Assembly: GCF_020149915.1 (NCBI RefSeq)
Contig: NZ_CP083760.1
Coordinates: 2,542,001-2,606,000, forward strand
DNA: 64,000 bases
Origin: Candidatus Sulfidibacterium hydrothermale
GTDB taxonomy: Bacteria > Bacteroidota > Bacteroidia > Bacteroidales > F082
Reading direction: 5' to 3'
Shown here: positions 54,161 to 64,000 of the stretch, one piece after another
Numbering within the stretch: the stretch's first letter is position 1
Layout: each line of letters starts with the position of its first letter
Notes under the pieces: model-generated
What the model was told of the DNA's origin: nothing
Database searches by the model: none
Seen by the model: the letters and a program-made list of their open reading frames with translations, nothing else
Program-made: the position numbers and the translations under genes

Positions 54161-55714
54161 TCAACCAAGATAATGCCGCATAATCCGGCTCAACTCTTCT
54201 ATTTTAATCGGCTTGTAAATAACGTCATTAAATCCGGCATCGAGGGCTTCCTTACGGCTGATATTTAAAGCCAGTCCGGTTTGGGCTATCAAAGGAATAT
54301 CCGGGTCATTTTTCCGGATAGCCCGGGCAACTTCCAAGCCATTCATTTCGGGCATCTGCACATCAATAAGGGCCATATCAATTTCATTTCGGTGATTGGT
54401 GTAGATTTCCATCGCTTCCTTCCCATCTTTAGCATAAAACATCTCTACGCCGGTTCTTTTAAGCGTTTCGCGAAAAAAAGCAAAAATCTGTTTTACATCA
54501 TCGGCAATTAAAATGGTTTTCCCTTCCCAGGCGCCCACAGGGAAAAGCCCGGTTTTTACCGTTTTCTCTCCGGAAACATCCTTTTGGATCTCTGTTGGCT
54601 CTTTATAAGGCAACGTGAAAAGGAAAGTACTTCCTTTTCCCGGTTCGGAACGAAGGCGTACAGCTCCTCCCATAAAGGTTACCAATCGTTTTACAATGGA
54701 AAGTCCCAGTCCGGTTCCGGTAAAGTTGCGGGTCAGGTTTTCCTCTACCTGGGTAAAACGTTCGAAAATGGTTTCCTGTTTCTCCTTGGGAATTCCAACA
54801 CCGGTATCTTTTACAAAAAATTCCAGCACCGGCATCTCTTTTTTCACCAGGCGATATCCCAGTTCTATAAGACCTTCTTCCGTAAATTTTACTGCGTTGC
54901 TCAACAAATTATCCAACACCTGTTTCAACCGGACTTTATCGGCCACAATCCGGTCGGGAGCTTCATCAGCAATCCGCAGCACAATTTGTACCGGTTTATT
55001 TTTCAATCGGTTGGCAAAAATAGTACGCAGCTCTCCCATCAGTTTTTTCAGCGAAAACTCCTGTTCAAAAAGGCGCAGTTCACCCGCTTCTTCTTTGGAA
55101 ACCTCCAAAATTTCATCAATAATACTCAAAAGCTGTTCTCCACTGTTAATGATAATCGCCGAGAACTCTTCCCTTTCACTGGGAGTTAAGTCGCTGTCCT
55201 GCAACAATTCGGCAAAACCGACAATCGAATTCATGGGGGTTCGTATCTCATGCGACATGTTTGAGAGAAAAGCCATTTTTAACTTTTCGCTTTCCTCGGC
55301 CTTTTTACGGGCAACCACCAATTCTTCGAGATAACGCTTCATCCGAAGATGGGTTTCCACACGAGCCAACAGCTCTTCTTTTTCAAATGGTTTGGTAATG
55401 TAATCCACTGCTCCGGCACGAAACCCTTCCACAAGACTCTTTTTGTCTGACGCTACTGTAACAAAAATAACCGGGATATCTTTTGTCCGCGCATCCGATT
55501 TCAGCATTTTACAAACTTCAATTCCACTAATGTCCGGCAATCTGACATCAAGCATGATCAGGTCAAACGGATTTGATTTGGCTTTTTTTACTGCCTGTAC
55601 AGCGTTTTCGGCAAAAGCAGCCTTAATATAAGTTCCATCCAAGTAAGCCTGTATTAAGGAACGGGCAGAAGCGGAATCGTCCACCACAAGAATATGGGCG
55701 TTCTTGTTATTCAT
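54161..55714 (-). CDS. Hybrid sensor kinase: REC-HisKA-HATPase-REC
   Basis: A 517-residue cytoplasmic signalling protein without membrane segments. An N-terminal receiver (ILVVDDSASARSL; phospho-Asp in IMLDVRLP) precedes a short coiled coil and a HisKA domain with a normal H-box, FLSNMSHEIRTPMNS. The ATPase has N-box VLDNLLSNAVKF, G1 DTGVGIP and G2 GTGLGLSIV. A second receiver ends the protein (ILIADDVKQ; IDVQMPEMNG). Input must come through the first receiver or a partner. The start is ATG 55714 (MNNKNAHILVVDD). It is divergent from the J-domain-like gene and the chemosensory operon, so cross-talk is possible. Confidence 0.92.
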   Translation of the reverse strand: MNNKNAHILVVDDSASARSLIQAYLDGTYIKAAFAENAVQAVKKAKSNPFDLIMLDVRLPDISGIEVCKMLKSDARTKDIPVIFVTVASDKKSLVEGFRAGAVDYITKPFEKEELLARVETHLRMKRYLEELVVARKKAEESEKLKMAFLSNMSHEIRTPMNSIVGFAELLQDSDLTPSEREEFSAIIINSGEQLLSIIDEILEVSKEEAGELRLFEQEFSLKKLMGELRTIFANRLKNKPVQIVLRIADEAPDRIVADKVRLKQVLDNLLSNAVKFTEEGLIELGYRLVKKEMPVLEFFVKDTGVGIPKEKQETIFERFTQVEENLTRNFTGTGLGLSIVKRLVTFMGGAVRLRSEPGKGSTFLFTLPYKEPTEIQKDVSGEKTVKTGLFPVGAWEGKTILIADDVKQIFAFFRETLKRTGVEMFYAKDGKEAMEIYTNHRNEIDMALIDVQMPEMNGLEVARAIRKNDPDIPLIAQTGLALNISRKEALDAGFNDVIYKPIKIEELSRIMRHYLG

Positions 55715-55828
55715 AGAAACAGGGTTTTTCTCATTTCCAAAAATAAAAAAAAACCAATACGAATAAACATCAATAGTCATTTTTTACGAACCTACGCCAT
55801 TGGAAAACAGTCATAAGAAACCTGAAAA

Positions 55829-55913: not shown

Positions 55914-56261
55914 ATGCGATTTTTTCCTGACGACATTGAAACGGAAGTGCAGGCACGATTGAATTATAAGCGCCTGGCAGTTTTGTATCATCCCGACCGG
56001 GGTGGCAATGAGGAAATTATGCGCGAAATTAACCGGGAATACAACGAGATAAAAAAAAGGCTCCGGAAACAGCGTGAAGGATTACAGCATCTAGAACCCG
56101 GTGACTGTGTAATTGTCAACGGTACCGAATGCGAAGTCACTGCTGTTTTTGAAAAAACTTTTATTGCCAGAGCCAAAGGTCGGCACCGGCTGGCTATTTT
56201 CGACAAAAAAACCGGTTACGCTGTATACGACAAGAAATACATTGCACGGCTTCCCCGATAA
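55914..56261 (+). CDS. Minimal J-domain-like protein with beta-barrel tail
   Basis: A 115-residue protein. Residues about 12-48 match helix II, the HPD loop and helix III of a DnaJ domain (YKRLAVLYHPDRGGNEEIM, then REINREYNEIKKRL). The usual helix I is missing or replaced by a short acidic start (MRFFPDDIETEVQ). Residues 60-115 are strand-rich (PGDCVIVNGTECEVTAVFEK) and look like a small SH3/KOW-type barrel. HPD suggests interaction with a DnaK-type chaperone; the tail could be the client- or nucleic-acid-binding part (inference). It lies 67 bases before the chemosensory operon on the same strand, with its own -7 element. Confidence 0.78.
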   Translation: MRFFPDDIETEVQARLNYKRLAVLYHPDRGGNEEIMREINREYNEIKKRLRKQREGLQHLEPGDCVIVNGTECEVTAVFEKTFIARAKGRHRLAIFDKKTGYAVYDKKYIARLPR

Positions 56262-56328: not shown

Positions 56329-56634
56329 ATGGTAGAAATCAATACTTCTGAAGATAAAAACACCATCCAAATTGTTTTTTCGGACGACCTGAGCGTGGCA
56401 AAAGCCTCCGAAATGCATGAACAACTCCGTAAATTCGCATGGGAAGCGCCCACTATTTCCATTTTGACAAAAGAGGTGAAAAATATGGATCTGAGTTTTT
56501 TGCAACTTTTGTTCTCTTTTGCCAGAGAAATGAAAAATTCCGGAAAAAAACTTATTTTTGATTTTCAGTTCGAGGAAGAAATGGAACGGATTTTTGAAGA
56601 ATCGGGGTTTCAACAAGCCTTTGAAAAAATTTAA
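56329..56634 (+). CDS. STAS-domain protein of the chemosensory operon
   Basis: A 101-residue single-domain protein with the STAS pattern: strand NTIQIVFSDDLSV, helix ASEMHEQLRKF, strand TISILTKEVKNMDLSFLQLL, then GKKLIFDF and FEESGFQQAFE. STAS proteins such as SpoIIAA act as phosphorylatable switches. Here the usual phosphoacceptor Ser before the D-L-S-F-L-Q-L-L helix is ambiguous (MDLSF contains a Ser). It heads the operon, ten bases before cheY. Its partner could be the kinase-like protein further down. The start is ATG 56329. Confidence 0.78.
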   Translation: MVEINTSEDKNTIQIVFSDDLSVAKASEMHEQLRKFAWEAPTISILTKEVKNMDLSFLQLLFSFAREMKNSGKKLIFDFQFEEEMERIFEESGFQQAFEKI

Positions 56635-56644
56635 GAGGCAACAC

Positions 56645-57013
56645 ATGCAAAAGAAAAAAATACTTTTTGTGGATGATTCGGCCAGCATTCGTGCGCTGGT
56701 AAAGATGATTCTTGAGAATGCCGGCTATGCCGTAACCCTTGGCACAGACGGACAGGATGCGCTGGAGCAGTTAAATGGTATTCCATACGACCTTATTATT
56801 ACCGACCTGCACATGCCCCGCATGAATGGACTGGAACTTATTAAAGAACTCAGAAAAAAGAATGAATACCGGTTTGTTCCTATTTTGTTTTTAACCACCG
56901 AAACAAAAACAGAGATCAAACAAGAAGCAAAGGCCGCCGGGGCCACCGGTTGGATTACCAAGCCCTTCAACGATGAAAAATTATTGCAAATCATAAAAAA
57001 AGTGATCAGGTAA
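56645..57013 (+). CDS. cheY: CheY-type response regulator
   Basis: A 122-residue single receiver domain. The acidic pocket is FVDDSAS (Asp10, Asp11), the phospho-Asp is Asp54 (ITDLHMPRMNG), the switch Thr is in FLTTETK and the Lys is in GWITKPF. There is no output domain. ATG 56645 (MQKKKILFVDD) is used because the longer frame to 56558 runs through the STAS gene. Its TAA overlaps the cheA ATG as TAATG, implying coupled translation. Confidence 0.93.
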   Translation: MQKKKILFVDDSASIRALVKMILENAGYAVTLGTDGQDALEQLNGIPYDLIITDLHMPRMNGLELIKELRKKNEYRFVPILFLTTETKTEIKQEAKAAGATGWITKPFNDEKLLQIIKKVIR

Positions 57014-59187
57014 TGGATGAGTTGTCAGCCAGTTTTGTAAACGAAGCTTATGAGCTACTGGAAAACCTGGAAGAAGCTCTTCTGAAACTGGAAAGTCATC
57101 CGGCAGACGAAGAACAAATCAATACGGTTTTTCGTGTCATGCATTCGTTAAAAGGAACCGGCGCCATGTTTGGCTTTGACGAACTAAGTACTTTCACCCA
57201 CGAAATGGAAAGCCTGTACGACATGGTTCGTTCCGGCAAATACAAAGTCGATAAAGACCTGATCGACTTTACCTTTCGAAGTATTGATGTTATCCGGTTA
57301 CTACTGGAAAAACCCGATTCACCGGAAACACAACAACAAAAAAAAGCTTTCCTTGGCGAACTTATTCATCGTTTTTCTGACCCCGGCACACCACATGAAC
57401 AACAGCAAAGTAAACCGCCGCATCATCAAAAGATCAAGAAATCAAAAGAAAAACCCTCTGCAACCTGGCATATCCGCTTTATACCCCACACCCAGATTCT
57501 GCAAAACGGTACACGTCCGTTATATTTATTGGATGAATTATCAGAAACAGGAAAACTGAAGTCATTTCTGCATACCGATAAAATTCCGCCTTTTCCTCAC
57601 CTGCCGGTTGAAAATGTTTACGTTTGGTGGGATTTGTTGCTGGCAACCGATAAATCTGAAAATTTCATCAAAGATGTTTTCATTTTCGTGGAAGATGAAA
57701 GCCAGATCGAGATAAAAAAAGTAGCTGACGGCGACCTGCTTAGTTACCCTGACGCAGTAGAAGAAATGGACAAACTGGCTTTTCATGAGTCAATTACGGA
57801 TGAAAAACTCAAAACATGGGCAGAAAAGCTCTCTTTGAAAAAACAGGAAAAAGAACAGACGCCTTCTGAACCGGTACCGGAACACACCTCACAAAAACCA
57901 GCTAAAGAACCCGTACCGGCCCCGGAAAAAAGCAACGACCAACAAGAAACCGAAAACCCGATTGAAGCCGATCAACATCCATCCGATCAACATAAAAAAG
58001 AAGAAAAAACCGGTGCAAAAGAAGAAGCATCGGTTTTACACGAAACCGTCCGGGTTTCTTCTGCCAAACTTGATGAACTCCTCGACATTATCAGCGAGGT
58101 CGTGACCACACAGGCAAGATTACTGCATTACAGTCAGAACCACGAAGACCCGGAACTAGAGAGCATTACAGAGGCTTATGAAAAATTGGCCCGGCAGTTA
58201 CGCGAAAACGCTCTCGACATGCGGCTCATCCCTATTTACACCATTCTTATCCGGTTTAAAAGGCTGGTACGCGACCTCTCTTCCCGCCTCAACAAAGAAA
58301 TTATTTTGAAAACTACCGGAACAGAAACCGAACTAGACAAGTCGATGATCGAGAAACTCTACGATCCGCTCATGCACATCCTGCGAAACAGTATCGATCA
58401 TGGCATTGAGCCGCCTGATGAACGTATTAAAGCCGGAAAAGATCCCAAAGGACTCATCCACATTAACACCTCCTATTCCGGAGCTCACGTAATTATCAAA
58501 ATCTCGGATGACGGTCGCGGCATGGACGAAAAACAATTACGGGAAACCGCATTACAAAAAGGGCTCATTTCTCCTGATGCCGAATATTCTAAAAAAGAGA
58601 TCCTGCAGCTGATATTTTTACCGGGATTTACCACTTCTGAAAAAGTAAGCCGGGTGTCAGGCCGTGGTGTCGGAATGGATGTGGTGAAAAAAAATATTGA
58701 AGAACTTCGCGGCAGCATCGAAGTGGATACGGAAAAAGGGAAAGGAACAACCATTATTCTTTCCTTGCCGTTAACCCTCTCCATTATCGACGGGCTATTG
58801 GTTTATGTCGGAAAAAACCGGTACATCATTCCGGTAAGTCATGTAAAACATATTTATCCGGTTACCCGGGAAGAACTCAAAAATACCATTAACCAGGTTA
58901 TTGGCAAAGACAATAAACAAATTCCATTTATTGATTTAGTGAAGGAATTTGATGAAAAAGACACCAACGAAAAAGAGATGTATCTTGTGGTGGTCAATTA
59001 TGGCAAGATGGAAACCGCACTGGTCATTAACAGTATTGTGGGGAAATACCAGGCCGTAATCAAACCGCTCAGCCGCATTGCGCAAAAACAGGAGATCTTT
59101 TCCGGTGCATCTATTCTTGGCGACGGGAATATTGCGCTGGTAATGGATATCAACAAATTAATCTACAAATTCTTGAACCATGAGTAA
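57013..59187 (+). CDS. cheA: Chemotaxis histidine kinase
   Basis: A 724-residue CheA. P1/HPt covers 1-105 with phosphoacceptor His44 (MHSLKGTG). A variable region (about 150-270) takes the place of P2, followed by a Pro/Glu/Lys-rich linker (about 285-345). P3 dimerisation helices run about 350-405 (AKLDELLDIISEVVTTQA). The P4 ATPase has N-box LRNSIDHGIE, G1 DDGRGMDE and G2 GRGVGMDVV. P5 (about 600-724) is CheW-like. The kinase appears fully functional. It overlaps cheY by one base and cheW by eight. Confidence 0.96.
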   Translation: MDELSASFVNEAYELLENLEEALLKLESHPADEEQINTVFRVMHSLKGTGAMFGFDELSTFTHEMESLYDMVRSGKYKVDKDLIDFTFRSIDVIRLLLEKPDSPETQQQKKAFLGELIHRFSDPGTPHEQQQSKPPHHQKIKKSKEKPSATWHIRFIPHTQILQNGTRPLYLLDELSETGKLKSFLHTDKIPPFPHLPVENVYVWWDLLLATDKSENFIKDVFIFVEDESQIEIKKVADGDLLSYPDAVEEMDKLAFHESITDEKLKTWAEKLSLKKQEKEQTPSEPVPEHTSQKPAKEPVPAPEKSNDQQETENPIEADQHPSDQHKKEEKTGAKEEASVLHETVRVSSAKLDELLDIISEVVTTQARLLHYSQNHEDPELESITEAYEKLARQLRENALDMRLIPIYTILIRFKRLVRDLSSRLNKEIILKTTGTETELDKSMIEKLYDPLMHILRNSIDHGIEPPDERIKAGKDPKGLIHINTSYSGAHVIIKISDDGRGMDEKQLRETALQKGLISPDAEYSKKEILQLIFLPGFTTSEKVSRVSGRGVGMDVVKKNIEELRGSIEVDTEKGKGTTIILSLPLTLSIIDGLLVYVGKNRYIIPVSHVKHIYPVTREELKNTINQVIGKDNKQIPFIDLVKEFDEKDTNEKEMYLVVVNYGKMETALVINSIVGKYQAVIKPLSRIAQKQEIFSGASILGDGNIALVMDINKLIYKFLNHE

Positions 59188-59701
59188 GTCGGAAGCGAAC
59201 ACCAAATCCAAAAAACAACATTATATTTTGTTTTATCTTGGCAACGAGGTATTTGTTATCAACGTAAAGTATGTTATTCGTGTACTGCCGGCTACAACTT
59301 TTACCAAAATTCCGCAAAGCCCCGGTTTTTTGCTGGGCGTAACCAACTTCAACGGAAGCGTGTTGCCGGTAGTAGACTCGTACAAGAAATTCAATTTTAA
59401 ACCTTCAAAAAAAAATGACAAACCCCTTATCCTGGTTTTAAATATCCGGGTAAACGGCAAAAATACCCATCTGGGGTTTTTGGTAGACGATTCGAATAAT
59501 GTGATCGAAGTGGCCGACAGCGAAATCAAACCCTATCCGGCTACCGGGAATAAATTCAATGTAGATTACATTGACGGGGTAATTCAGCTAAACGGAAAAT
59601 TCATTTTGATTCTGAATCCTGAAAAACTATTTGAAAAAGAAGCTGAACTAAGTATAGAAAACGAAATCAATACCGGAAAATCGGCTGCCGACAACCGGTA
59701 A
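59180..59701 (+). CDS. cheW: CheW-type coupling protein
   Basis: A 173-residue CheW domain protein linking receptor and CheA. It carries YILFYLGNEVFVINVKYVIR (strand 1-2), IPQSPGFLLGVTNFNGSVLPV and DYIDGVIQLNGKFILILNPEKL, which are the conserved CheW blocks. A basic N-terminal tail and an acidic C-terminal tail extend slightly beyond the usual length. Its ATG lies inside the cheA end, overlapping by eight bases. Confidence 0.92.
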   Translation: MSKSEANTKSKKQHYILFYLGNEVFVINVKYVIRVLPATTFTKIPQSPGFLLGVTNFNGSVLPVVDSYKKFNFKPSKKNDKPLILVLNIRVNGKNTHLGFLVDDSNNVIEVADSEIKPYPATGNKFNVDYIDGVIQLNGKFILILNPEKLFEKEAELSIENEINTGKSAADNR

Positions 59702-59748
59702 AAAAATAGAACAAATACAAGAAAAAGAAATATTATTTACTAAAACCC

Positions 59749-61434
59749 ATGGCCATGAAAAGTATAAGTTTCCGGGCAAAAATGATAAGCCTCCTCGTTT
59801 TAATCCTGATCATCTTTATTATTTTGGGAGTCGTCATGCAAAGTTCACTGCGGACCAGTAATCAAATTATTGGCAATCTGTATCAGAACAGCATTAAAAT
59901 CGAAGACCAGATTACAGTCATTAACAATACTTTGATGACAAAAGTTCAGGTTCCGATACAAAAATTGCGGACCACCGGCAAAACCGATCCCAATACCATT
60001 TTCGGAATTCGTTCTGCCATGAAAGGTTTGCGCGTGAAGCTGGCAGAAGTTTTAAATTTAACTAACAATTCTGAAAGCAAACGGATTTATCTTTCGGCCA
60101 TGACCGCTTCGCTGGACAAAATTTTTCAAAGCGTGGAAAAGATTCTTCAGTTTCATTTTAACGGAGCTCAGGCTACCCGGGATGAACTGAACCAATGGAA
60201 TGCCCTTTACGATTCACTAAACAAACATCTAGAACAATTCGCCGTCAATTCAGAAAAATTTTCGCAAGAACAAGTCCGGGATGACAAACAAACCATTCAG
60301 CAAATTCAAAAATCACTTTCTCATAAATCAAGGCTTAACATTACGATTCTTATTATCGGGCTTTTGATCATTTTCATTTTTCCGGTACTTTTCATCAAAG
60401 ACATCTCTCAAAAATACCTGTTGGTCATCCGGTATCTCACCAGTCTTTCCAAAGGGAATCTGAATGAGGACATTCCCGATATTTCGCGGGATGAAATGGG
60501 ATGGATTCTGCACAATGTCAGAAAATTACGAGACAGCCTACGGAAAATAACCATCGAGGTCAATACGGCTGCCGGAAATCTCTCTATTGCCAGCCACGAT
60601 TTAAGTGCTTCTTCGCAAAGTATTGCCCAGGGCGCTTCAGAACAGGCATCATCAGTTGAAGAAGTTTCCTCATCAATTGAGCAGCTGGCGTCTAACATCC
60701 ATCAGGTCTCTGATAATGCCAAAATTGCCGAAGGCATTGCCAATAAGCTGGCAGAAACGACAGACCTCATGGTTGCCGAAGCCCGCGAAAGCCAGGAAAA
60801 AATGACGGCTATTGCCGAAAAAGTAGGCATTATCAACGAAATTGCTTTCCAAACCAATATTCTGGCACTGAATGCCGCTGTTGAAGCAGCACGGGCCGGT
60901 GAACACGGAAGAGGCTTTGGTGTTGTAGCCGTAGAAGTAGGAAAACTGGCCGAACGCAGTAAAAAAGCAGCAATCGAAATTGAAAACCTGATCCATTCCA
61001 GCGTGGAAGTTATTGCCAAAGCCGGAGAAATGATGGTGGAAGTTGCTCCGGAAGTAAACCGTACTGCCGAAATGGTGAAAAGCATCTCCCAGGCCAGCAT
61101 TGAACAGAAAATGGGAGCCGATCAAATTAATACTGCCATCCAGCAGCTAAATGAAGTCACCCAGCAAAATGCGGCAGCTTCTGAAGAAATTGCTACCAGT
61201 GCCGAAGAACTATCGGCCCAAGCTGACCGGCTTATCGAAGCCCAATCCTTCTTTAAACTGGACGAAAAAAGTCAGGCAGCCACCCAGAATGCGGCATCTC
61301 AAAGTCCAATCAAGCCAAAGAAAAAGCTTCCGCAAACCGTAACTACCGGTAAAAAAAGTAAAAGCAGCAGCAAAGGTGTGGACATCGACCTGGGGAAACC
61401 GGATGATCTGGACGAGGAATACGAACGTTTTTAA
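59749..61434 (+). CDS. Methyl-accepting chemotaxis protein with CheR/CheB-tether-like tail
   Basis: A 561-residue receptor. TM1 (about 12-32, ISLLVLILIIFIILGVVM) and TM2 (about 196-216) flank a periplasmic four-helix-bundle sensor of about 160 residues. A HAMP domain follows (about 217-270), then a long signalling coiled coil with the hairpin tip IAFQTNILALNAAVEAARAGEHGRGFGVVA. A basic linker leads to a C-terminal DDLDEEYERF. The final EYERF fits the pentapeptide consensus x-[HFYW]-x-x-[HFYW] that recruits CheR and CheB. The ligand is unknown. It is the only receptor here and is followed 20 bases later by cheR. ATG 59749 or 59755 may start. Confidence 0.94.
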   Translation: MAMKSISFRAKMISLLVLILIIFIILGVVMQSSLRTSNQIIGNLYQNSIKIEDQITVINNTLMTKVQVPIQKLRTTGKTDPNTIFGIRSAMKGLRVKLAEVLNLTNNSESKRIYLSAMTASLDKIFQSVEKILQFHFNGAQATRDELNQWNALYDSLNKHLEQFAVNSEKFSQEQVRDDKQTIQQIQKSLSHKSRLNITILIIGLLIIFIFPVLFIKDISQKYLLVIRYLTSLSKGNLNEDIPDISRDEMGWILHNVRKLRDSLRKITIEVNTAAGNLSIASHDLSASSQSIAQGASEQASSVEEVSSSIEQLASNIHQVSDNAKIAEGIANKLAETTDLMVAEARESQEKMTAIAEKVGIINEIAFQTNILALNAAVEAARAGEHGRGFGVVAVEVGKLAERSKKAAIEIENLIHSSVEVIAKAGEMMVEVAPEVNRTAEMVKSISQASIEQKMGADQINTAIQQLNEVTQQNAAASEEIATSAEELSAQADRLIEAQSFFKLDEKSQAATQNAASQSPIKPKKKLPQTVTTGKKSKSSSKGVDIDLGKPDDLDEEYERF

Positions 61435-61454
61435 TCAGAAAAAGCCTTTTCATC

Positions 61455-62306
61455 ATGGATGAAACCCGTTTTAAAACCGAATTTGGGAAGCTGAGCCAAC
61501 GTGATTTTTCACGGCTCAGCCAGTTCATCTATGAGAATTTCGGTATTTTTCTTCCGGACAAAAAACATTACCTGTTACAAAACCGTCTTATTCCCCGACT
61601 TCGTGAGCTGGGATTCTCTTCATACGGCCAGTATGTTGATTATGTTTTAAACCAGGGAACGGAAAGTGAAGAGGTGTTCGAGATGATGAATGTGGTTTCG
61701 ACCAACAAAACAGAATTTTTTCGCGAAAAAGAACACTTCACCCTGTTACAGCAAAAGCTGCTCCCCGATTTTTACGGAGAAAATATCCGCGTATGGAGTG
61801 CCGGCTGTAGCAGCGGAGAAGAGGTTTACAGCCTTGCCATGGTGCTGGCCGAAGAAAAAGAAGCAGGACATATACCGGATTTTTTTATTTACGGAAACGA
61901 TATTTCAAAACGAATTCTCCACAAAGCCATTCAGGCCATTTATCCTTACAAAGAAGTGGAATCGATTCCTTTTGCTTACCGTAAAAAATATTTGCTACGG
62001 AGCAAAAACAAAGAGAATCCCACTATCCGGATTGTCCCTGAACTCCGGGCACACACCCGCTTTTTATGGGAAAACCTTACCGGAAATATAGAAACGTTGC
62101 CCTATGATTTTCAGTTTGTTTTTTGTCGGAACACATTGATTTATTTCGATCGTGAAACCCAGAACAAGGTGGTAACCCGCTTATTAAAGCACCTGAAACC
62201 GGGCGGATATCTCATTGTCGGGCATTCCGAATCGCTTTTACACCAACTTCCACCCGGTGTAAAAGTCATTCAGCCTACTGTTTATCAAAAAATTAAGAAA
62301 TCATGA
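61455..62306 (+). CDS. cheR: Chemotaxis protein methyltransferase
   Basis: A 283-residue CheR that methylates receptor glutamates with SAM. The N-terminal helical domain contains IYENFGIFLPDKKHYLLQ. The catalytic domain has VSTNKTEFFRE, the SAM loop VWSAGCSSGEEVYSLA (about 116-131), and FCRNTLIYFDRETQ, ending with GHSESL. Its stop overlaps the next ATG as ATGA. A receptor with a tether-like tail is encoded directly upstream. Confidence 0.95.
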   Translation: MDETRFKTEFGKLSQRDFSRLSQFIYENFGIFLPDKKHYLLQNRLIPRLRELGFSSYGQYVDYVLNQGTESEEVFEMMNVVSTNKTEFFREKEHFTLLQQKLLPDFYGENIRVWSAGCSSGEEVYSLAMVLAEEKEAGHIPDFFIYGNDISKRILHKAIQAIYPYKEVESIPFAYRKKYLLRSKNKENPTIRIVPELRAHTRFLWENLTGNIETLPYDFQFVFCRNTLIYFDRETQNKVVTRLLKHLKPGGYLIVGHSESLLHQLPPGVKVIQPTVYQKIKKS

Positions 62307-63169
62307 AGCATACAGACAAGCCGAACAAAGAAATAAAAAACCTACAGGAAGAAAATCGCCGGTTACTTGCTGAAGTTGAAGAACTCAACAAAAAACTGGT
62401 GGAATCAGAAGCTTTCAAAAGCCATTTTCTTTCCAATGTAACCAACGAAATCGTCAATCCGTTTGCTTCGGTCATCGGGCTTTCGCAACAAATTATGACG
62501 CTGTACAAGAACAGCTGTCCTGAAGCGGCAGAAGTGGCCGCACTAATTCACGCAGAAGCATCTTCACTTGACTTCCAACTGCGTAATATTTTTGTGGCAG
62601 CCCGTCTCGAAGCCGGCGAAGAAATCCCCGAGCCTTCCAAAATCATCATGGAAGAAGTATTGCAGGAAACCATAAAAAAAATCCGGCAGGAAGCCGACAA
62701 AAAAGAAATCCGCATCGTAGTAAACACCAATCCGGATTGTCCGGATTTCGTTACGGATAAAAACAAACTGGACCTGATTTTGCTCAATCTTCTCAGTAAT
62801 GCCATTCACTTTTCAGAAAACGGGAAAACAGTAACGCTTTCCACCGACTGCACGGATCAGGAATTGATTATTGAAGTAAAAGATGAAGGGATCGGCATGA
62901 CGAAAGAAGAAAAAAGCCGGATTTTCGACCGTTTTCACCGGGCCAATCCGCGAATACAATCGGTAAGTCCCGGCAGCGGACTGGGACTGGCTGTAGTGGA
63001 AGGTCTGCTGTTTTTGCTCAATGGAAATATTGAAATAGAAACAGCTCCCGGAGCAGGCACAACCATTAAAGTAACCCTGCCTGCAATGAGTATCGACGAC
63101 ATACCGTCGGACGATGTACTTTTTTTTGATGATGATGACGAAGAAAACAGCGAAGAAGAAAGTTTCTAA
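62303..63169 (+). CDS. Histidine-kinase-like protein lacking the phosphoacceptor His (pseudo-HisKA)
   Basis: A 288-residue cytoplasmic protein. An N-terminal coiled coil (about 8-38) leads into a HisKA-like helix, FLSNVTNEIVNPFASVIG. There the H-box His is Asn48 and the following R-T-P is V-N-P. The ATPase domain looks functional: N-box LILLNLLSNAIHF, G1 KDEGIGMT, F-box IFDRFHRA and G2 GSGLGLAVV. The C-terminus is a long acidic tail (FFDDDDEENSEEESF). It cannot autophosphorylate in the normal way. It may bind ATP and regulate the STAS protein, CheY or CheA, perhaps as a Ser kinase like SpoIIAB (inference). It overlaps cheR by four bases and precedes cheD by five. Confidence 0.87.
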   Translation: MKHTDKPNKEIKNLQEENRRLLAEVEELNKKLVESEAFKSHFLSNVTNEIVNPFASVIGLSQQIMTLYKNSCPEAAEVAALIHAEASSLDFQLRNIFVAARLEAGEEIPEPSKIIMEEVLQETIKKIRQEADKKEIRIVVNTNPDCPDFVTDKNKLDLILLNLLSNAIHFSENGKTVTLSTDCTDQELIIEVKDEGIGMTKEEKSRIFDRFHRANPRIQSVSPGSGLGLAVVEGLLFLLNGNIEIETAPGAGTTIKVTLPAMSIDDIPSDDVLFFDDDDEENSEEESF

Positions 63170-63174
63170 TTCAA

Positions 63175-63654
63175 ATGCAACCGTTTAAAACATACTACCT
63201 TTATCCGGCAAATATTTTTGCCAGCAGAGAGATGTACCATATCACGACACTTCTCGGATCCTGCGTGGCAGTATGTCTTTACGATACCCGTCAGCGTTTT
63301 GGCGGGATGAACCATTTTATGCTTCCGTTGTGGAACGGAAAAGGACTGGCTTCCCCGAAATTTGGAAATATTGCCATCCGGCAACTGGTACAAAAAATGG
63401 AATTTCTCGGAAGCGATAAAAAAGATTTGATTGCCAAAGTTTTCGGCGGAGCTGCGGTACTGGATGTCAGCTCCGAATTATTTAATGTGGGCAGCCGCAA
63501 TGCCGACGTAGCACTTTCCGAACTGAAAATGTTAAATATCGAGGTGGTGGCTTCCAGCATTAAAGGAGAAAAAGCACGAAAAATAATTTTTAATACTTTT
63601 ACAGGTGAAGTCAGACAAAAATACATTGAAAAACGCGGAGACAAAAAATCATGA
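63175..63654 (+). CDS. cheD: Chemoreceptor glutamine deamidase
   Basis: A 159-residue CheD that deamidates receptor glutamines and in some species binds CheC. The catalytic Cys lies in TTLLGSCVAVCLYD and the His in FGGMNHFMLP, as in Thermotoga CheD. KVFGGAAVLDVSS and the terminal GKKARK-type strand (GEKARKIIFNTFTG) complete the family pattern. No CheC gene is seen before the window ends. Its stop overlaps the cheB ATG as ATGA. Confidence 0.92.
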   Translation: MQPFKTYYLYPANIFASREMYHITTLLGSCVAVCLYDTRQRFGGMNHFMLPLWNGKGLASPKFGNIAIRQLVQKMEFLGSDKKDLIAKVFGGAAVLDVSSELFNVGSRNADVALSELKMLNIEVVASSIKGEKARKIIFNTFTGEVRQKYIEKRGDKKS

Positions 63655-64000
63655 TTTCAGGTAAACCCATAAAAGTATTGCTGGTGGATGACTCGGCTAT
63701 GGTCACAAAAGTAGTCTCCCATATCATTAACGAAGACAAAGAGCTTACCGTAATGGGGGTGGCAGCCAATCCGTATGAAGCGGTTGAGATCATGAAAAGA
63801 GAGAAGCCCGATGTTATCCTGTTAGATATTGAAATGCCCCGGATGGACGGACTCACGTTTCTGCGAAAGATCATGACACAACATCCTATTCCGGTGGTTA
63901 TTTTTTCGGGCGTGGCTCCAAAAAACTCCCGTAATGCAGTAAAAGCACTGGAATACGGAGCAGTAGCTGTTTTACAAAAACCCAAATCCATTCTTTCTCC
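63651..64000 (+). CDS. cheB: Chemotaxis methylesterase, N-terminal receiver part (partial)
   Basis: The frame opens at ATG 63651 (MISGKPIKVLLVDDSAMVTK) and runs off the right edge after 116 codons. It shows a receiver with phospho-Asp in ILLDIEMPRMDGL, PVVIFSGVAPKNS and YGAVAVLQKPKS, the arrangement of CheB receivers just before the linker to the esterase domain. The esterase itself is outside the window. Overlap with cheD and operon position support CheB over a stand-alone CheY. Confidence 0.88.
   Translation, partial: MISGKPIKVLLVDDSAMVTKVVSHIINEDKELTVMGVAANPYEAVEIMKREKPDVILLDIEMPRMDGLTFLRKIMTQHPIPVVIFSGVAPKNSRNAVKALEYGAVAVLQKPKSILS

Follow-up and report, generated by a model that had tools for sequence, protein, structure and literature searches.

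Histidine kinases of the HisKA class usually combine kinase and phosphatase activities, and the evolution and control of the two are debated. DivL of Caulobacter crescentus, a protein of cell-cycle control, carries Tyr at the site of the phosphoacceptor His and has PAS and further sensor domains. In CrdS of Myxococcus xanthus, according to extracts from Willett and Kirby (PMC3510030), the Asn four positions after the phosphoacceptor His (+4) is required for phosphatase activity and dispensable for kinase activity, Thr at +4 is only partly functional, the Glu at +1 is required for kinase and not for phosphatase activity, and the substitutions I373A and P376A lower phosphatase activity. An E/DxxT/N phosphatase motif across HisKA kinases is described in a Streptococcus agalactiae study (PMC11502775). 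In chemosensory signalling, CheC of Bacillus subtilis is a phosphatase of phosphorylated CheY (CheY-P) and binds CheD in a complex stabilised by CheY-P (extracts of PMC3579733), and accounts of Rhodobacter sphaeroides describe a CheA divided into CheA4 and CheA3, the latter a kinase-type protein adding phosphatase activity. In this study, we describe a chemosensory operon on the plus strand at the end of a 64,000-nucleotide stretch (the window; bases 2542001-2606000) of the 3.27 Mb single-contig genome of Candidatus Sulfidibacterium hydrothermale. The operon includes a histidine-kinase-like gene, here named pHK, whose product has Asn at the phosphoacceptor site.

We propose with moderate confidence, from sequence features and gene context, that pHK is a HisKA-derived CheY-P phosphatase that would end the signal, paired with CheD and in the place of CheC. 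The gene and its altered H-box are as follows.

62303..63169, plus strand: pHK, 288 amino acids, HisKA-type dimerisation and histidine-phosphotransfer (DHp) domain and catalytic ATP-binding (CA) domain, Asn48 at the phosphoacceptor His site
62426..62464, plus strand: H-box of pHK, FLSNVTNEIVNPF, with Asn48 (0), Glu49 (+1), Asn52 (+4) and Pro53 (+5)

A kinase-like ATPase lacking the phosphoacceptor His had been noticed in a sequence-only reading of the window, which named neither the retained phosphatase residue nor a pairing with CheD, and the observation holds: Asn48 stands where HisKA kinases carry His, and HATPase_c is matched at 87.4 bits (cut-off 26.4). HisKA itself scored 20.8 bits, under its cut-off of 26.9; the only other Pfam match was HATPase_c_2, and no membership of CheC, CheX or CheZ was found. 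Relatives were collected from 247 genomes of one bacterial order at E<=4.2e-34 in open frames shorter than 400 amino acids, and the H-box residues played no part in the selection. The search yielded 60 matches, spread over 59 genomes of 40 families; some pHK may be missed since only up to nine candidates were scored per genome. Sequence flanking these matches, and flanking further cheA genes, was fetched as loci (L numbers). All 60 pHK loci, including five beyond the alignment, encode Asn at both 0 and +4 (58 recognised by pattern, L056 with NQIINP from the alignment and L124 from a frame-split fragment), the +4 residue being one of the two, Thr or Asn, that mark HisKA-type phosphatases. In the 55 aligned proteins the H-box has Asn at 0 (55/55), Glu at +1 (54/55), Ile at +2 (54/55), Asn at +4 (55/55) and Pro at +5 (55/55), so that the +2, +4 and +5 residues relevant to CrdS are kept in 54, 55 and 55. 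Other kinases in the fetched loci had His in 31 of 31 readable H-boxes, with Thr at +4 in 30 and Asn in one; 27 further kinase hits with no readable H-box were left out of this background. The HATPase domain of pHK has N, G1, F and G2 boxes, and these are mostly kept: both N-box Asn residues and the G2 glycines are present in 55/55. The spacing of E49-x-x-N52 also matches the ExxN pair of CheX, a protein of unrelated fold (PMC3510030, in extract). pHK shares its domains and H-box with CrdS and HK853 and its +4 Asn with CrdS, HK853 being the nearest solved sequence; these two differ from it in being bifunctional and in having the His (same extracts).

The gene context points in the same direction. 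The next gene after pHK is cheD in 55 of the 60 loci; three of the others are at contig ends, and in two (L099 and L124, of one family) CheD lies elsewhere. CheR is directly upstream in 51 of 60, the rest having mostly a receiver or hybrid kinase in between or a contig end. CheA relatives (E<=1e-30, other che types included) were found in 76 of the 247 genomes; the 59 pHK genomes all belong to these 76, and no pHK was found in the other 171. CheD of any type was present in 68/247 genomes and in 59/59 pHK genomes, although in G084, whose pHK is at a contig end, only a second, non-operon type was found. Nine genomes, G162 among them, carry CheD without pHK. Eleven che loci without pHK (L106-L113, L116, L119, L120) had no CheD within the locus. 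CheC and CheZ were each found in 0/59 pHK genomes and CheX in 1/59 (G035), with profiles that did match in control genomes, B. subtilis and E. coli among them. Taken together, the adjacency of pHK and cheD, the retained phosphatase residue and the unfilled phosphatase slot suggest that pHK takes the CheC role, as a phosphatase or binder of CheY-P that works with CheD, although CheC is an unrelated domain and pHK has a HisKA-type kinase fold. CheY is the most conserved operon protein, with a mean pairwise identity of 67% in 37 loci with pHK vs 42% in eight sequences from loci without it. The predicted structure of pHK, closest in the PDB to DivL and to HK853-RR468 complexes, also counts in favour.

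In the proposed pathway, which would be non-flagellar, an array of methyl-accepting chemotaxis protein (MCP), CheW and CheA would phosphorylate CheY and CheB, CheR, CheB and CheD would adjust the receptors, and a CheS-like STAS protein would work with CheA and CheY. pHK would be a HisKA kinase whose autokinase activity was lost with the change from His to Asn and whose DHp surface and +4 Asn were kept; it would bind CheY-P, strip the phosphoryl group and terminate the signal. Its pairing with CheD, presumably by contact, may couple the CheY-P level to receptor modification, as CheC does in B. subtilis. Rather more tentatively, we suggest that a histidine kinase became a dedicated CheY-P phosphatase or sensor through its fixed Asn, paired with CheD and replacing CheC across much of the order. 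That such a protein represents the 'phosphatase half' of a bifunctional kinase, occurring in nature as a protein of its own, is a suggestion of the same tentative kind. If true, pHK would widen the range of folds known among CheY-P phosphatases and offer a way into chemosensory systems that lack flagella, and 60 natural His-less proteins with the phosphatase residue kept would be a ready test case for kinase and phosphatase evolution.

Several observations weigh against a phosphatase, a role predicted from sequence and gene context. The kinase-linked +1 Glu is kept in 54/55 proteins, and the G1 box has decayed in a few (Asp 51/55, second Gly 50/55). Losing the His lowers rather than raises phosphatase activity in CrdS and EnvZ; in CrdS H371A the activity is lowered and not abolished (extracts of PMC3510030). 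G077 and G181 have CheD away from pHK, and in G162 cheR-cheD-cheB occur without pHK between them (L157). The absence of CheC, CheX and CheZ may be an order-wide trait, because the 17 genomes with CheA and no pHK were not included in that search. The CheY comparison is uneven (8 vs 37 sequences, the systems without pHK being older and more mixed), and CheA follows the same trend more weakly (48% with pHK, 36% without). The top structural neighbour, the pseudokinase DivL, is not known as a phosphatase, and the structural matches may mirror the conformation that AlphaFold2 happened to produce.

It is possible, though we consider it unlikely, that pHK is instead a non-catalytic reader like DivL, with a DHp domain that binds CheY-P or CheB-P and relays this state, for example to CheD or CheA, with no hydrolysis. 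The AlphaFold2 model of pHK (25 sequences; mean predicted local distance difference test score, pLDDT, 81.7) predicts a histidine-kinase-type fold, with helices 6-66 and 72-104 forming the DHp hairpin, a CA domain and a disordered tail; Asn48 sits in the first DHp helix (6-66). DivL (4q20) was the top match in a Foldseek search against the PDB (E 1.1e-18), followed by HK853-RR468 complexes, and RetS matched as well. The loss of the phosphoacceptor in 60/60 loci would also suit a reader, and in B. subtilis CheC the binding of CheY-P seems weightier than enzymatic activity (extracts of PMC3579733). However, the +4 Asn, the CrdS phosphatase residue, is invariant although the background usually has Thr, and the nucleotide-binding boxes are mostly kept. 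A sequence profile places HK853 (147.8 bits) above DivL (115.3 bits). pHK, like DivL, has no phosphoacceptor His, but it has Asn and no PAS domain where DivL has Tyr and other domains, and it is a short, predicted soluble protein in a che operon. By Foldseek template-modelling score (query), several HK853-RR468 complexes reached 0.67-0.70 vs 0.57 for free HK853 (2c2a); the pHK model is compatible with a receiver-binding conformation, a reading that may depend on the model.

An improbable alternative is a split kinase, in which the ATPase domain of pHK phosphorylates the CheA Hpt domain or a partner kinase in trans and the Asn protomer is only the catalyst. The intact N-box Asn (55/55), the G2 glycines (55/55) and the kinase-linked Glu (54/55) count in its favour, the R. 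sphaeroides CheA offers a divided precedent, and hybrid kinases adjoin the operon in some loci. They do so in a minority of loci, though, and the operon CheA has complete kinase domains of its own. CheA3 resembles pHK in its proposed activity and differs in being a divided CheA, whereas pHK is of HisKA type and is encoded alongside a CheA that is complete. Among the hybrid kinases, one of REC-HisKA-HATPase-REC architecture is found repeatedly, either following cheB or lying between cheR and pHK, with 50-59% identity to the copy in the window's genome (L005:1853-3849, and L047, L051, L054, L080, L105 and L123, the last by profile). In the window's genome, the region 3' of cheB beyond the window encodes this kinase (524 amino acids, REC-HisKA-HATPase-REC), then a 135-amino-acid receiver and, further 3', multi-haem cytochrome-like genes as read from translations.

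The sequence-only reading had given the order STAS-cheY-cheA-cheW-mcp-cheR-pHK-cheD-cheB with four start/stop overlaps, and open reading frames (ORFs) and Pfam domains confirmed all nine genes and all four overlaps. The genes other than pHK are:

56329..56634, plus strand: STAS protein, 101 amino acids, CheS-like by domain and gene position (PF13466 29.5 bits)
56645..57013, plus strand: cheY, single receiver domain (Response_reg 102.8 bits)
57013..59187, plus strand: cheA, 724 amino acids, own Hpt histidine (HSLKG); Hpt, dimer, HATPase and CheW domains above cut-off
59180..59701, plus strand: cheW (CheW domain 106.7 bits)
59749..61434, plus strand: mcp, C-terminal EYERF (MCPsignal 112.3 bits)
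61455..62306, plus strand: cheR; CheR and CheR_N above cut-off
63175..63654, plus strand: cheD, GSC and NHF motifs (CheD 83.4 bits)
63651..64000, plus strand: cheB, cut by the window end (CheB_methylest 210.9 bits, Response_reg 82.2 bits)

The overlaps are of one base at cheY/cheA (the end of cheY is the start of cheA, 57013), eight at cheA/cheW (59180-59187), four at cheR/pHK (62303-62306) and four at cheD/cheB (63651-63654). The listed cheY frame opens at TTG; the ATG at 56645, 10 bases past the STAS stop, is the likely start. The whole cheB encodes 359 amino acids (L005:652-1731) with receiver and methylesterase domains. CheA, CheW, CheY, MCP, CheR and CheB are encoded together, all above the Pfam cut-offs, and the Che core looks intact because the signature motifs are present: HSLKG in the CheA Hpt domain, TDLHMP in CheY, GSC and NHF in CheD, which we take to hold the catalytic Cys and His, and GASTGG and MGNDG in CheB. 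Promoter and terminator scans gave numbers close to chance (25 found vs 22.3 expected and 17 vs 14.7, respectively).

Two proteins outside the chemosensory core, STAS and pHK, are conserved with the operon. The sequence-only reading had held that neither belongs to the standard Che components, which was too strong for STAS, since CheS is known beside cheY-cheA in alphaproteobacteria. In Sinorhizobium meliloti, the che cluster encodes CheS, a STAS-only protein which binds CheA and alters CheA-CheY binding, and in S. meliloti and Agrobacterium fabrum it is encoded beside cheY1 (atu0515, atu0516), like the STAS of the window (extracts of a review, PMC12654446). The likeness is one of domain and position; the window STAS is a weak match, if one that stands, at 29.5 bits for PF13466 (cut-off 29.2) vs 21.8 for PF01740 (cut-off 22.6), and scores 27.5 bits against the NCBIfam anti-sigma antagonist (cut-off 53.45). 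A single-domain STAS frame of 98-127 amino acids immediately precedes cheY-cheA in 34 of 42 CheA loci. Of these 34 proteins, 14 seeded the profile and the remaining 20 match it at E 3.6e-11 or lower; a D-L-x-x-x-Q motif is kept (Asp 34/34, Gln 33/34). The eight other loci comprise one cut STAS copy, one match inside a longer frame, four with no STAS (L048, L052, L053, L086) and two that stop at a contig edge (L092, L102). The match in the longer frame belongs to the second che locus of G054 (L050:5572-6660), where it lies inside a 362-amino-acid ORF upstream of cheY and may be a fusion.

It was also suggested from the sequence that STAS and pHK recall SpoIIAA and SpoIIAB, pHK being the Ser kinase of STAS; the two share one operon here and in many relatives, and the window STAS has Ser at the relevant position. 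We regard this partner switch as very improbable and rejected it because of the family scores, the variable site and the distribution of the genes. pHK is not SpoIIAB-like: HATPase_c_2 (RsbW/SpoIIAB type) scores 20.2 bits, under the cut-off of 27.4, and pHK has a histidine-kinase DHp domain. The position near the SpoIIAA phospho-Ser has Ser or Thr in just 23 of 34 STAS proteins (S 12, T 11, A 7, G 2, P 1, V 1). STAS also precedes cheA in four che loci that have no pHK (L106, L107, L108, L112), and within the operon STAS adjoins cheY-cheA, while pHK adjoins cheR-cheD. Elsewhere in the genome, an RsbW-like protein and a SpoIIE-type phosphatase are encoded together. Given the occurrence of STAS without pHK, the unconserved Ser and the CheS precedent, STAS is best read as CheS-like by analogy, acting on CheA and CheY and not as a partner of pHK. 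The RsbW-like ATPase, beside a Cache-SpoIIE phosphatase (L182:3667-5884, ~1667666-1669883), is a candidate partner switch of its own; the operon-STAS profile matched no STAS in the 19.9 kb stretch around the pair.

That pHK is a decaying kinase gene of no function, kept by its position in the operon, would fit the lost phosphoacceptor, the G1 box decayed in a few members and the gene's absence from G162, but is most improbable given its mean pairwise identity of 45.5% (60 sequences), near that of CheA (48.1%) and CheW (47.2%), and its invariant non-His residues across 40 families.

Lack of conservation in relatives would have spoken against a joint system, and it did not occur: STAS is found in 34/42 CheA loci and pHK in 60 loci of 59 genomes. 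The statement that chemosensory operons are uncommon in Bacteroidota was also too strong, as CheA relatives are present in 76/247 genomes of this order. Across 395 genomes of the phylum (profile A1, six candidates scored per genome), no second pHK was found among the matches listed, which, apart from the window's pHK (341 bits), were all longer frames of ordinary kinases at <=194 bits; that pHK is restricted to the order reflects the sampling, because few of the 395 belong to it. A single-protein query with pHK gave six loci (L006-L011) with no che genes recognised besides kinases; L006, the sole H-box read among them, has His. pHK falls in no specific Pfam or NCBIfam family (best NCBIfam 155.6 bits vs a cut-off of 400), and no description of such a protein was found in the open-licence literature, which is weak evidence of novelty as most subscription papers fall outside that scope.

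As for the output, a flagellum was rejected, as FlhA was found in 0/59 pHK genomes, and so were retraction-type pili, as PilT (TIGR01420) exceeded its cut-off in 0/247 genomes. Weaker TIGR01420 matches (E<=0.001) occur in 24/247, 14 of them at 161-182 bits, as for secretion or assembly ATPases, and none in the window's genome. GldJ is matched in 238/247 genomes (122 over cut-off; 4.5e-116 in the window's genome) and is uninformative on gliding because it is nearly universal in the sample.

pHK ends in a distinct tail:

63095..63166, plus strand: acidic C-terminal tail of pHK, final Phe, low confidence in the model (pLDDT <50 at 271-277 and 282-288)

The C-terminal residue is Phe in 54/60 proteins and Leu in 4/60, two being cut by contig ends. 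The EYERF at the MCP end is presumably a pentapeptide of the CheR/CheB-binding type, and in the fetched loci 35 of 47 MCP ORFs have x[FHWY]xx[FHWY] at their C-terminus. An MCP-type docking pentapeptide in the pHK tail was rejected, as one of 60 tails fits; because of this misfit, a dock shared by pHK and MCP would be a mere guess. A CheD-binding receptor mimic in pHK was inspected by eye, and no claim is made for it.

At five loci, each in a different genome, the second type of CheD immediately precedes a large hybrid kinase whose H-box is intact, outside che operons (L156:8063-11266 in the window's genome, ~2118062-2121265, and L158, L159, L160 and L161). Three of these kinases were domain-scanned and have PAS domains; a CheD-hybrid kinase module may exist. 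On the upstream side of the operon, a small protein (window 55914-56261) has a J-domain-like HPD motif (YHPDRGG) and no Pfam or NCBIfam match, and another REC-HisKA-HATPase-REC hybrid kinase (window 54161-55780, minus strand) points away from the operon.

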